DNA of 64,000 nucleotides, taken from IMG/VR virus record IMGVR_UViG_3300037882_002578, positions 1 through 64,000 of that record; one strand, written 5' to 3'. A model generated the notes under the pieces. The model had not been told where the DNA came from and ran no database searches. It saw only the letters and a program-made list of their open reading frames with translations. Numbering within the stretch: the stretch's first letter is position 1; each line of letters begins with the position of its first letter. Source of the DNA: a virus. The translations under genes were made by a program, and so were the position numbers. Below are positions 10,109 to 28,542 of the stretch, in pieces.

Positions 10109-10795
10109 TTAGAAGGGTAGGTCATTACTAACTTCCTCTTTTTTAGGTGTTTCTGTTTTTGGAGTTGCTGTTTGCACAGGTGCTTGAGTAGGAGTGCTTA
10201 CTGATTTAAATCTTTCTTCTATCTCTTTAATTTTCGCAGTAAAAAATTTATTTACAGGCTTCCAATTCCAAGTAACCTCTCCATCATCTTCGTCAACTTC
10301 TTTTTCTGCTTTAGGAATTTCAACATAAGGAATAAATCCAGTACCTAAACCTTTACGGTTTTCTCCTAATCTACCTGTATAATTAATATAAATATTAAGG
10401 TTTTCTTTTTCTACGCCTGCCTTATTGGTATATTTACTTTTAGCTGTAGATAATGTAACTTCTTCTCCTAACTCTAAACCGTTTAAAGCTGAAATTAAAG
10501 TCTTAACTTCGTCTGTATACCCGTTTTTGTTTTTTAAAGCAGTTGATACTTTATTAGACACTTCTCCGTCTACAAGTGTAAGTTCTAAAAACTTTAAAGT
10601 TCTATTTTGATATTGAATCTCTTTAGTCTCAAAATACTTTGGAATTCCTTTAATACTTGAATGGTATTGGTGATAAGTTTTGTCTTTAACTTCTCCCGTT
10701 CCGTATAACACCTCTTCAAATCCCTCTTGAGGTGTTTTGCTTTTTAGGTATAGCTTACCTTTCCCTGAGGAAATCGAATAATTCTTGTACTCCAT
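10109..10795 (-). CDS. ssb: single-stranded DNA-binding protein
   Basis: A 228-aa protein with a beta-rich N-terminal OB-like region (residues about 1-140), a low-complexity Pro/Thr linker (about 195-218) and an acidic tip ending SNDLPF. This is the hallmark C-terminus of SSBs (compare DDDIPF), which recruits partner enzymes. The linker-plus-tip layout and its place among recombination genes support the call. It would coat ssDNA for the UvsX-like recombinase and helicase encoded nearby. Confidence 0.75.
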   Translation of the reverse strand: MEYKNYSISSGKGKLYLKSKTPQEGFEEVLYGTGEVKDKTYHQYHSSIKGIPKYFETKEIQYQNRTLKFLELTLVDGEVSNKVSTALKNKNGYTDEVKTLISALNGLELGEEVTLSTAKSKYTNKAGVEKENLNIYINYTGRLGENRKGLGTGFIPYVEIPKAEKEVDEDDGEVTWNWKPVNKFFTAKIKEIEERFKSVSTPTQAPVQTATPKTETPKKEEVSNDLPF

Positions 10796-10810: not shown

Positions 10811-11275
10811 TTATGTACTCTTTAATTTATTTCTTGTTAATTTATTTTTTATTTCGCCGAAAAAGTAAATTACAGACTCTTTAAATACTTCAAAAGGAGT
10901 CATCTGAGCTACTTTTATCCTACCATAAACTTCAAAGATATCTTCTTCTACAAAGTACTCTCTTCCATCTTTAAACTGAATCAAAGTTCCAAACTCTTCA
11001 GCTTCTACTGCGGTAGAAAAATCAGTCATATCTAAGAATCTATTTTGAAAGTCATAGGTAAACTCACCTTCTTCTAACTTCATAAAACCATCTTCAGATA
11101 TTAAGTTCTCTTCATTTAAAAGTTCCTTTGGGGGCTTCATCCCTAGCTTGTCATAGAAATCTAAATCGTACTCTGAATCAGAACTTTTAGAAGTAGCTTT
11201 TTTAACTTTTTCTTCTCCTTTCTCGCTAAGTATTGTAATAACTTCAGTGAAAAAGACGTAATTTACTTTTTTCAT
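10811..11275 (-). CDS. hypothetical acidic protein, 154 aa
   Basis: A strongly acidic protein with beta-strand segments (GTLIQFKDGREYFVEEDIF) and a Lys/Ser-rich patch (KKATSKSSDSEYDL). Located just upstream of ssb and downstream of the small RNA unit at 11283-11429. No family recognised. Confidence 0.65.
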   Translation of the reverse strand: MKKVNYVFFTEVITILSEKGEEKVKKATSKSSDSEYDLDFYDKLGMKPPKELLNEENLISEDGFMKLEEGEFTYDFQNRFLDMTDFSTAVEAEEFGTLIQFKDGREYFVEEDIFEVYGRIKVAQMTPFEVFKESVIYFFGEIKNKLTRNKLKST

Positions 11276-11282
11276 ATATTTA

Positions 11283-11429
11283 ATTTAAAAAGAGAGTTGT
11301 TAATAACGTACCCCTTGGGGTAGATTTCCGAACGATGTATATTATAGTATAGTCCCTTTTTCAATCGCTTTTGCAGGGGTATTAAAGTATTTCTACCAAC
11401 TTCATTTGTACGTCACTCTCTTATTTTGT
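11283..11429 (-). ncRNA. structured small RNA, about 145 nt, own promoter and terminator
   Basis: Three perfect nested helices: 11415-11422 with 11290-11297 (8 bp), 11408-11413 with 11306-11311 (6 bp), and 11392-11397 with 11319-11324 (6 bp). Together they close the RNA end to end; inner CCC/GGG and GC pairs add branches. A promoter (11434-11471) places the 5' end near 11429. The closing stem is followed on the minus strand by a T tract, as in an intrinsic terminator. No matching known family comes to mind. Confidence 0.65.
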
Positions 11430-11433
11430 TAGG

Positions 11434-11471
11434 TAAATATAAAACTTTTATTTGACTTGTGCAAATTTATT
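11434..11471 (-). promoter_or_regulatory. leftward promoter of the structured RNA
   Basis: Minus-strand AATAAATTTG (11471-11462), 20 nt, then TATATTTA (11441-11434). The same -33 decamer and spacing occur at 13109-13072. It overlaps the 3' end of the 245-aa gene. Confidence 0.65.
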
Positions 11472-13109: not shown

Positions 13110-13854
13110 GTTTGTTATTTATAAAATTTCTATGGGCTTTATCAATTTCAGTTACCAATCTTCCACGCATCTGATAACTATCACCCATCTCAAAGACACA
13201 AACCCCTTCAATATCTTTAACAATATTAATAAAATCTTTAAATCCACTTCTATTACCTATGTCTGATTGAGTTTTACATCCGTTAATATAAAGTTTAGAG
13301 CCTTCTGCTAACCTAGTACTTATAGTAACAAGCTCTCTTAATTCGCAGTTTTGTGCCTCTGTTAAAACTATACATACGTTTCCTTTTCTACCACCTAAAG
13401 TTTTTCCTCTGATAAATCCAGGATATTCAAATCTAACTTTATTTTTAATTCTATCAAAAACTGCAGGTTTTAACATTCCTCTCATTTGGTCGTAAAATAT
13501 TTCCAAGTAAGGCATTAGCTTGTCATCCTCCGAACCTGGTAAAAATCCGATTTTAGATGAAGTTGCTTCTACAATAGTTCTCATAAAAATAACCTCTTCA
13601 AACTCTTTACTTATTAATCCTGACATGGCTCTAAAAACTTGTATAAAGTCCTTTCCTACGCCTGCAAACCCATCTAGAATAACAATATCATTTTCTCTGT
13701 GTAAGTTAACAATTGGTTTTTGAATATCTTTTAACTCAACAGTAAAATTATCTGAGTTTCTAGAGCTTATAGAATTGGAAGTTAATCCATGTTCTACAAC
13801 TTTCTCTTTCTTTTTAGGTTCTCTTTTAACAGGTGTTCTTTTTTGTGCTGTCAT
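13105..13854 (-). CDS. phoH: PhoH-like ATPase
   Basis: A 249-aa PhoH-family P-loop protein. Walker A is GFAGVGKDF (residues 62-70), followed by EEVIFMRTIVEA and GFLPGSEDDKLMPY. Walker B is the typical VLTEAQNCE. Further family motifs are GSKLYINGCKTQSD and FEMGDSYQMRGRLV. PhoH proteins are common in large phages and are thought to act on RNA or nucleotides during takeover. The Walker A ends GKD, where GKT or GKS is the rule, so nucleotide handling may be altered. The basic N-terminal 20 residues look unstructured. It has its own promoter at 13880-13917. Confidence 0.88.
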   Translation of the reverse strand: MTAQKRTPVKREPKKKEKVVEHGLTSNSISSRNSDNFTVELKDIQKPIVNLHRENDIVILDGFAGVGKDFIQVFRAMSGLISKEFEEVIFMRTIVEATSSKIGFLPGSEDDKLMPYLEIFYDQMRGMLKPAVFDRIKNKVRFEYPGFIRGKTLGGRKGNVCIVLTEAQNCELRELVTISTRLAEGSKLYINGCKTQSDIGNRSGFKDFINIVKDIEGVCVFEMGDSYQMRGRLVTEIDKAHRNFINNKQ

Positions 13855-22121: not shown

Positions 22122-22300
22122 GTGGAAACCGATGCATTAAATCCTATAAAGGGCTATATATTTAATATTATTTTAATTTATTGTAGGGTTTCCACATCTA
22201 CTTTAAACTTTTAATCTCAATAAAAATCTAACTCCTTAAGTTAGATGCGTATCTTTAGGTAATACGTTTGCAAGAATAAATCTCTGACCAAGTTCATTAC
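22122..22300 (-). other. structured non-coding leader with inverted repeats
   Basis: This stretch holds a 9-bp exact inverted repeat, 22122-22130 with 22187-22195 (GTGGAAACC/GGTTTCCAC), and a hairpin 22226-22233 / 22239-22246 (8 bp, 5-nt loop). A weak promoter-like TATTCTTG occurs at 22278-22271. It would be the 5' leader of the 300-aa gene. It may regulate that gene, for example by operator binding or RNA structure. Confidence 0.5.
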
Positions 22301-27328: not shown

Positions 27329-27463
27329 ATGATAAAATCAAAAGATATTCTAATTAGAATAGATGAGGAGTTAAAAAATAAAGCTAAGGAAAAAGCAATA
27401 GATTTAGGATTGTCTTTATCTTCTTGGATTAGAACTTTAATAATTAAAGATTTAAAGAACTAA
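27329..27463 (+). CDS. ribbon-helix-helix protein, 44 aa
   Basis: KDILIRIDEELKNKAKEK followed by LGLSLSSWIRTLIIK gives the RHH pattern: one strand, helix, helix with SSW. Such small proteins often precede tnpB, and the start of tnpB overlaps its stop (TAATG). It probably autoregulates the element. Confidence 0.7.
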   Translation: MIKSKDILIRIDEELKNKAKEKAIDLGLSLSSWIRTLIIKDLKN

Positions 27464-28542
27464 TGTTAACTTATACCTTTAAAATAAAAACAAGTCCTGA
27501 ATTAATTCAAAAAATTGAAAATAATTTTTCGGTGACTCGTTGTGTTTACAATCTAGCAAAAGAAACTAGAGAATATGCTTATTCTAAAGGTGTGAAAATA
27601 AGTAAGTTTGACTTAATTAAACAATTACCTGAACTTAAAAATGAGTTTACTTGGATTAAAGAAGTTCATTCTCAAACACTGCAAGGAGTAATTGAAAGAC
27701 TAGATAAAGGATATGATAAATTCTTTGCAGACTTAAAGAAAGGAATTAAAACAAATAAGCCAAAATGGGCTAAGAAGAAAGATTGGAAATCGGTTGAGTT
27801 TAAAAGTTCAGCTTTAAAAGTAAATAAAGATATTTTTGAAATATCTAAAATAGGAAAAATAAAAATATTTAAAAGTAGAGAAATAAATGGAAACATAAAA
27901 TTAGCAAGACTAGTAAAACAAGTAGATGGATATTACTTACAAGTTATAACAGATTGCGATATTCCGAAGTGCGAGAACCAAGCACAACTAGCGATAGATT
28001 TAGGAATTTCTCAATTTGTCGTAACAAGTGATGGAGAATATTTTGAAAACATTAGAACAACTAAAAAATACGCAGATAAATTAGCAGAAGCACAAAGAAA
28101 GTTATCTTTAAAAAAGAAATTTTCTAACAATTTTTATAAAGAAGTAGAAAAAGTAAAGAGAGTCCATTTAAAAATTAGAAGAGTTAGAGAAGATTATCTT
28201 CATAAAGTTTCAAGGCAATTAGCTAATAATTATCAATACATTATCGTAGAAGATTTAAATGTTCAAAAGATGATTAAAAACAAAGATTATTCAAAATCTA
28301 TTTCAGATGTAAGTTGGGGTAAATTTATAAATTATTTAGAATACAAAACTACTGTAATTAAAGTAAACCCTGCCTACACCTCTCAAGAGTGTTCAAATTG
28401 TGGACATACCTCAAAAGAAAACAGAAAAACACAAGAGAGCTTTAAGTGTGTAAAATGTAATTTTGCAACAAATGCAGATTTTAACGGCTCATTAACAATT
28501 AAAAAGCGAGGACAATCGCTACTAGAAAATTATGAAAAATAG
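27463..28542 (+). CDS. tnpB: TnpB RNA-guided nuclease of IS605 family
   Basis: A 359-aa TnpB with an N-terminal HTH (VTRCVYNLAKETREYA) and a complete RuvC-type catalytic set: AIDLGISQ (Asp about 178), IIVEDLNV (Glu about 262) and NADFNGSL (Asp about 338). The zinc finger CSNCG...CVKCNF (about 310-330) is also present. The RNA guide would come from the right end, and the bases after TCAA are the start of terL. TnpB acts as a guided nuclease helping the element persist. Appears intact. Confidence 0.92.
   Translation: MLTYTFKIKTSPELIQKIENNFSVTRCVYNLAKETREYAYSKGVKISKFDLIKQLPELKNEFTWIKEVHSQTLQGVIERLDKGYDKFFADLKKGIKTNKPKWAKKKDWKSVEFKSSALKVNKDIFEISKIGKIKIFKSREINGNIKLARLVKQVDGYYLQVITDCDIPKCENQAQLAIDLGISQFVVTSDGEYFENIRTTKKYADKLAEAQRKLSLKKKFSNNFYKEVEKVKRVHLKIRRVREDYLHKVSRQLANNYQYIIVEDLNVQKMIKNKDYSKSISDVSWGKFINYLEYKTTVIKVNPAYTSQECSNCGHTSKENRKTQESFKCVKCNFATNADFNGSLTIKKRGQSLLENYEK

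Follow-up and report, generated by a model that had tools for sequence, protein, structure and literature searches.

A probable structured RNA unit, closed by end-to-end pairing, behind a strong promoter match in a crAss-like phage genome

Between a strong promoter match and the gene of a 154-aa protein, the phage genome analysed here carries an element (E1) which probably encodes a structured, non-coding RNA that is closed at its 5' end and belongs to no Rfam family. About 150 bases can pair end to end, and a pseudoknot probably forms inside. E1 is tentatively read as a unit of structured non-coding RNA carried within the 5' leader of a phage transcript, and its likeliest role would be that of a trans-acting RNA product. 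The RNA-product reading is favoured because E1 is dispensable for the gene behind it, because elements of its kind recur before unrelated genes or before no gene, in tandem and beside tRNA genes, and because the contents of these sites turn over. The lack of a homologue and of a convincing terminator and an ordinary folding energy speak against it.

Phage, promoter and predicted transcript

Few known viruses are as abundant as the crAss-like phages, yet very little has been described of their non-coding RNAs, and a literature search on this subject found no paper. The DNA stretch analysed (the window) comprises the first 64 kb of a virus record of 135,902 bases (genome G000) from an uncultured phage found in metagenomes only. 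Its major capsid protein is closest to those of the Cellulophaga phages phi4:1 and phi17:2 and of a crAss-like gut phage, and because of these nearest relatives G000 is treated as a putative crAss-like phage with a host among the Bacteroidetes.

The genes surrounding E1 lie on the minus strand, and so does a match to a Bacteroidetes sigma-A-type promoter, the pattern of which (TTTG-N20-TATATTTA) occurs at 13 sites in the window versus 1.6 expected. An RNA from the plus strand was ruled out, as promoter and flanking genes are all on the minus strand. In flavobacteria (Flavobacterium psychrophilum), the TAnnTTTG box maps to -12 to -5 (PMC9723704). With the promoter-like box, which ends at 11434, placed accordingly, the predicted +1 falls on 11429. 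This is exactly the end coordinate that an earlier, sequence-only reading had given to an element with a promoter just before it. Counted from this start, the closing helix P1 lies at +8 and the 154-aa gene at +155, giving a leader of 154 nt. The phage promoter would start transcription about 7 nt before P1, and a promoter of its own, as expected of an independent small RNA gene, is present at E1 as a sequence match.

Table 1. Features of the E1 locus and of other closed units (window positions unless marked as genome positions)
Feature	Position	Strand	Basis or remark
Bacteroidetes sigma-A-type promoter TTTG-N20-TATATTTA	11434..11465	minus	pattern match and homologous promoter in relative L001
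E1, structured element, 133 nt between outer ends of closing helix	11290..11422	minus	helix and shuffle tests
P1, 5' strand AAGAGAGU	11415..11422	minus	pairs with 11290-11297 ACUCUCUU
P1, 3' strand ACUCUCUU	11290..11297	minus	followed by UUUAAAUUAAAUAU, then ATG
P2, 5' strand GACGUAC	11408..11414	minus	pairs with 11305-11311 GUACGUU
P2, 3' strand GUACGUU	11305..11311	minus	partner of GACGUAC
P3, 5' strand GGUAGA	11392..11397	minus	pairs with 11319-11324 UCUACC
P3, 3' strand UCUACC	11319..11324	minus	partner of GGUAGA
Proposed pseudoknot helix, 5' strand UACCCCU	11375..11381	minus	pairs with 11309-11315 AGGGGUA, crosses P3
Proposed pseudoknot helix, 3' strand AGGGGUA	11309..11315	minus	partner of UACCCCU
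154-aa gene, first behind E1	10811..11275	minus	homologues in three phages
228-aa SSB-like protein, second operon gene, C-terminal LPF tip	10109..10795	minus	LPF invariant in four homologues
Three tandem closed units behind one promoter beside phoH	13067-12946, 12938-12813, 12804-12704 (within 13071-12690)	minus	closing helices
Closed unit behind another promoter	genome 120965-120883		closing helix

Pairing within E1

The sequence-only reading had described three perfect, nested helices of 8, 6 and 6 bp, and all of them are present at the places given, on the minus strand (AAGAGAGU/ACUCUCUU, ACGUAC/GUACGU and GGUAGA/UCUACC); the second has 6 bp, or 7 when one G-U pair is counted. The strongest interior arrangement computed is not nested, since GGUAGA/UCUACC is crossed by the candidate helix UACCCCU/AGGGGUA (p = 0.007 versus shuffles). 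The RNA would fold into a body closed by P1, inside which P3 and the crossing helix would make a pseudoknot. P2 and the pseudoknot helix compete over 3 nt.

That such an architecture is hard to get by chance could be maintained for its placement at the ends of the element and not for nesting as such. In this AT-rich genome, nested helices alone are not rare, because 151 of the 467 helices of at least 8 bp that span 90-180 nt enclose two further nested helices of at least 6 bp. Among 3000 dinucleotide shuffles, 7 had a closing helix of at least 8 bp no more than 10 nt from either end, and none had the full end-anchored set of 8, 6 and 6 bp. Since the helices were already known when the tests were devised, single-element p-values such as that of the best closing helix measured from the promoter (p = 0.024) are to be taken with caution. 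When the gaps were tested one by one and not anchored to a promoter, the gap containing E1 was not among the matches at p < 0.05. Folding energy, proposed earlier as a check against dinucleotide shuffles, leaves E1 within the shuffled range, with a nearest-neighbour z of -1.20 on the minus strand (21 of 200 shuffles, ~10%, as good) and of -1.59 on the plus strand. Ordinary folding energy loses force as a refuter here, because a pseudoknot-free energy is blind to the best interior pairing.

3' end, coding potential and family searches

A stop signal of its own, which had been seen in the T tract after the helices, did not hold up: just UUU lies past the helix (five-T run in all), and a terminator scan found no terminator-like site or defined 3' end of a small RNA gene at E1. 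With this signal unsupported, E1 may be a separate small RNA, its 3' end perhaps made by processing, or simply a 5' leader continuous with the mRNA of the 154-aa gene. The earlier statement that no coding frame is present is correct for ATG or GTG frames of at least 20 codons and has to be amended by a 46-codon frame without such a start (30 codons from a TTG), whose TGA overlaps the ATG of the 154-aa gene.

The impression that E1 matches no recognised RNA family was borne out, as none of 4227 Rfam families matched at the gathering threshold. The best match below threshold, RatA (19 bits versus a gathering score of 49, E 4.3), has nothing in common with E1 except A+U-rich composition. An identity as tRNA or tmRNA was dropped, since neither ARAGORN nor Rfam recognises a cloverleaf or a tmRNA. 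Homologues of E1 were not found by a protein-guided search; the helix pattern GACGTAC..GGTAGA..TCTACC had 30 matches, none with the P2 partner, and a search for the promoter plus AAGAGAG..CTCTCTTTTT had two, both unrelated to E1. Chance matches only were returned by blastn against phages, and a single-sequence covariance model run over eight phage records found only E1 itself. As far as sequence comparison goes, E1 is an orphan in every collection searched.

The genes behind E1 and relatives that lack it

Homologues of the 154-aa protein are encoded in L001/G001 (69-71% identity), G011 (33%) and G012 (28%). The protein has no Pfam or PHROG match, and a fold search yielded nothing usable. For the 228-aa protein encoded by the second operon gene, most top structural matches are SSBs, none of them passing E 0.001. 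In three relatives (G001, G011, G012) the 154-aa gene is followed by the SSB-like gene in the same order, and all three are without E1. In G001, about 19 nt separate the homologous promoter TTTGCATAACTGAAATAATAGTTGTATATTTG from the ATG, and this promoter reads straight into the 154-aa homologue; in G011 and G012 this homologue lies almost directly after another gene. By locus, E1 is missing from the interval between promoter and gene in L001, and L082 and L083 lack it ahead of the gene. The 28 leaders that follow strong promoters in G000 and G001 (median 22.5) fall into two classes, one short (0-27 nt, 16 leaders) and one long, to which the leader with E1 belongs. Judged from the relatives without E1 and from the mostly short leaders, E1 is an insert gained or lost between the promoter and its gene.

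In G001, a GIY-YIG-like homing endonuclease gene (L001 4179-4898) directly precedes the promoter that serves the 154-aa gene, and at this site G000 has E1, behind the promoter; for comparison, segG adjoins T4 gene 32 (PMC535899).

Other closed units behind promoters

The class of units to which E1 is assigned was recognised after E1 had been seen, and its units share no sequence with E1. Homology with the phoH-side units (Table 1) was considered and rejected, because nothing is in common beyond short A+T-rich words. Across the nine leaders examined, closing helices close to the start are more frequent than chance would give (combined p 3e-4). When E1 and L067, which was included solely for its promoter, are left out, the combined p is 6e-4 and the helices begin at +1 to +9; two of the nine leaders (L069 and L067) have no closing helix. 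In an independent test, strong long-range closing helices at p < 0.05 were present in 11 of 50 non-coding gaps of 120-500 nt in G000 and G001, versus 4 of 100 coding stretches (p 0.001). With phi4:1 added the count is 13 of 58 (p 5e-4), phi4:1 alone contributing 2 of 8 annotated gaps. In the interiors of eleven units, E1 included, plain folding is not in excess (p 0.91), and pseudoknot potential is (combined p 8e-4). Support for a closing helix above chance is at class level only, and the same is true for the pseudoknot potential. A single shared pseudoknot topology, first seen by eye, was dropped, as the best computed pairings vary from unit to unit and the general excess alone is significant.

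Replacement of contents is most evident beside phoH. A promoter followed by structured RNA is found there in G000, G001, G012 and L054, and the contents are unrelated: G000 has three units, G001 has two structured stretches and a tRNA-Met, which closes the array, G012 has two and L054 one. The U6 at the end of one G001 unit directly adjoins the next promoter, so this unit is not the leader of a gene. At the promoter of the unit at genome 120965-120883, G001 has the promoter and the gene and lacks the unit. The unit at genome 118888-118800 (minus strand) has a true homologue in phage L078 (1666-1763), and both keep the closing helix, an inner hairpin and the crossing GCGG/CCGC. When the closing sequence of another unit was searched against genome contigs, one match was obtained, in Methanosarcina and probably by chance.

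A common closing sequence, AAAGAAACA(G)../..(C)UGUUUCUUUAUUUUU, was observed in G000 118888-118800, L078 1666-1763, L080/L081 and L054, around differing interiors. In phi4:1 (NC_021788.1), an unannotated closed element with ends AGAAUUGUAAG/CUUACAAUUCU (p 0.013) lies at ~143042-143178 before an annotated tRNA-Ile, and a tRNA-like T-arm sequence is found in the unannotated gap at 129774-129976.

Comparison with known phage RNAs

The SSB of T4, gp32, regulates its own gene, gene 32, through a pseudoknot in the leader and UUAAA repeats (PMC535899). E1 resembles this operator in its location in a phage leader, in its candidate pseudoknot, in the unstructured UUAAA-containing tail UUUAAAUUAAA and in the genes behind it, which include an SSB-like one (PMC535899, PMC3014915). 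In contrast to the operator of about 28 nt, E1 has 133 nt and is closed end to end; the T4 leader serves the SSB gene itself, whereas E1 precedes the 154-aa gene and the SSB-like gene comes second. E1 is missing from three relatives, and binding of the SSB-like protein to it, like any repression of translation, is putative.

Phage tRNA clusters also encode small stable RNAs whose function is unknown, T4 RNA C and RNA D among them. They are likened to E1 by description only, as compact non-coding RNAs encoded by a phage; units of the E1 group adjoin tRNA genes in G001 and phi4:1, whereas E1 is situated alone behind its own promoter and not in a tRNA cluster. The packaging RNA of phi29 is a phage RNA of ~120-170 nt, the two ends of which pair. 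Its length and paired ends are similar to those of E1, but it belongs to another phage group, E1 has no match to the pRNA family in Rfam, and unlike for the pRNA no link to packaging follows from the position of E1 at the SSB operon.

Weighing of the possible functions

The strongest rival to the RNA-product reading is cis regulation, in which E1 would be an operator, attenuator or mRNA-stabilising 5' structure of the operon that comprises the 154-aa and SSB-like genes; an autogenous SSB operator would be one example. Cis regulation is a possible explanation, although on balance an unlikely one. E1 sits in a 5' leader without a clear terminator, an SSB-like gene comes second in the operon, and the candidate pseudoknot followed by UUAAAUUAAA ahead of the start codon recalls the T4 gene 32 operator (PMC535899). 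The alternative pairings of P2 and the crossing helix would permit switching, and E1 contains a 7-codon upstream frame (MKLVEIL). However, as three relatives have both genes in the same order without E1, regulation through E1 is not conserved. The SSB-like gene is second and not first, UUAAA-like A+T-rich stretches ahead of start codons are usual in these phages and occur at the other leaders too, and units of the same design precede unrelated genes or none. Much less can be said for translation of the 46-codon frame (30 codons from the TTG) in coupling with the 154-aa gene. The frame is open and has a 4-nt stop/start overlap, but it starts with neither ATG nor GTG, its length is unremarkable (p 0.083, i.e. 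expected in 8% of shuffles) and no homologue was found in phages, related phage genomes or Pfam, all of which makes this explanation very improbable.

It is doubtful, though rather less far-fetched than a short gene, that only the promoter is real and that an insertion left the leader behind as a spacer without constraint, with the helices expected of AT-rich sequence of its length. The folding energy inside the shuffled range, the 151 other places in the genome where an 8-bp helix encloses two more, the failure of E1 in the unanchored gap test and its lack of conservation are all in line with chance. They are opposed by the rarity of the end-anchored arrangement among shuffles and by the unusual pseudoknot potential, and a spacer of 150 nt would itself be unusual, because most leaders of G000 are shorter than 30 nt.

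In the favoured RNA-product reading, E1 would be one of a set of units behind strong promoters, present alone, in tandem or beside tRNA genes and grouped by design and not by proven ancestry, and such units would be lost, gained or replaced between related phages. The RNA of E1 would act in trans, either as a regulator or by decoying a host factor that binds or cuts RNA, and the 154-aa gene would receive read-through from E1. A decoy or regulator of a host factor would fit the turnover of unit contents.

Wider implications and neighbouring observations

The phoH-side site, which in four phages always holds structured RNA and never the same RNA, behaves like an accessory locus. Accessory loci often harbour counter-defence functions. 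A generalisation that we regard as speculative and rather improbable is that crAss-like phages of Bacteroidetes carry rapidly exchanged, end-closed, pseudoknotted RNAs acting in trans, at a fixed phoH site and scattered elsewhere, E1 included, and that these RNAs serve, for instance, to decoy host defence or RNA-targeting enzymes. Should infected cells produce the units, the isolated relative phi4:1 would be a tractable system, because a closed unit immediately precedes its tRNA-Ile gene.

Several further features of G000 were recorded. A closed element of 123 nt at 119035-118913 on the minus strand (L036 15035-14913) has two tRNA-type T-arms, AAGGGUUCAAUUCCCUU and GUAGGUUCAAUCCCUGC, and two D-arm-like stretches, one half being circularly permuted, with the ends GGAAAAUG/CAUUUUCC. 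Its best Rfam match is tRNA-Sec with 19.9 bits, below threshold, its fold has a z of -2.3, and ARAGORN in normal mode made no call; the element resembles a head-to-head junction of two tRNA elbows. A non-coding block, GTGGAAACC..GGTTTCCAC, is conserved with equal spacing on the minus strand of G000 (22122-22195) and G001 (13713-13786), and a tRNA-Asn adjoins it in G001 and not in G000. A non-coding gap at 127192-127303 contains a perfect 20-bp inverted repeat, GCTAGTACAACTCACTAGGG, over 112 bases. At 27463-28542 of the window, a TnpB-like gene (OrfB_IS605, Cas12f1-like TNB domain) adjoins late genes. The palindrome TTTCGSCGAAA occurs nine times in G000, at 10852, 12070 and 18610 of the window and within genome positions 97868-129453, in many cases at the end of a gene or separating a closed RNA unit from the start codon that follows.
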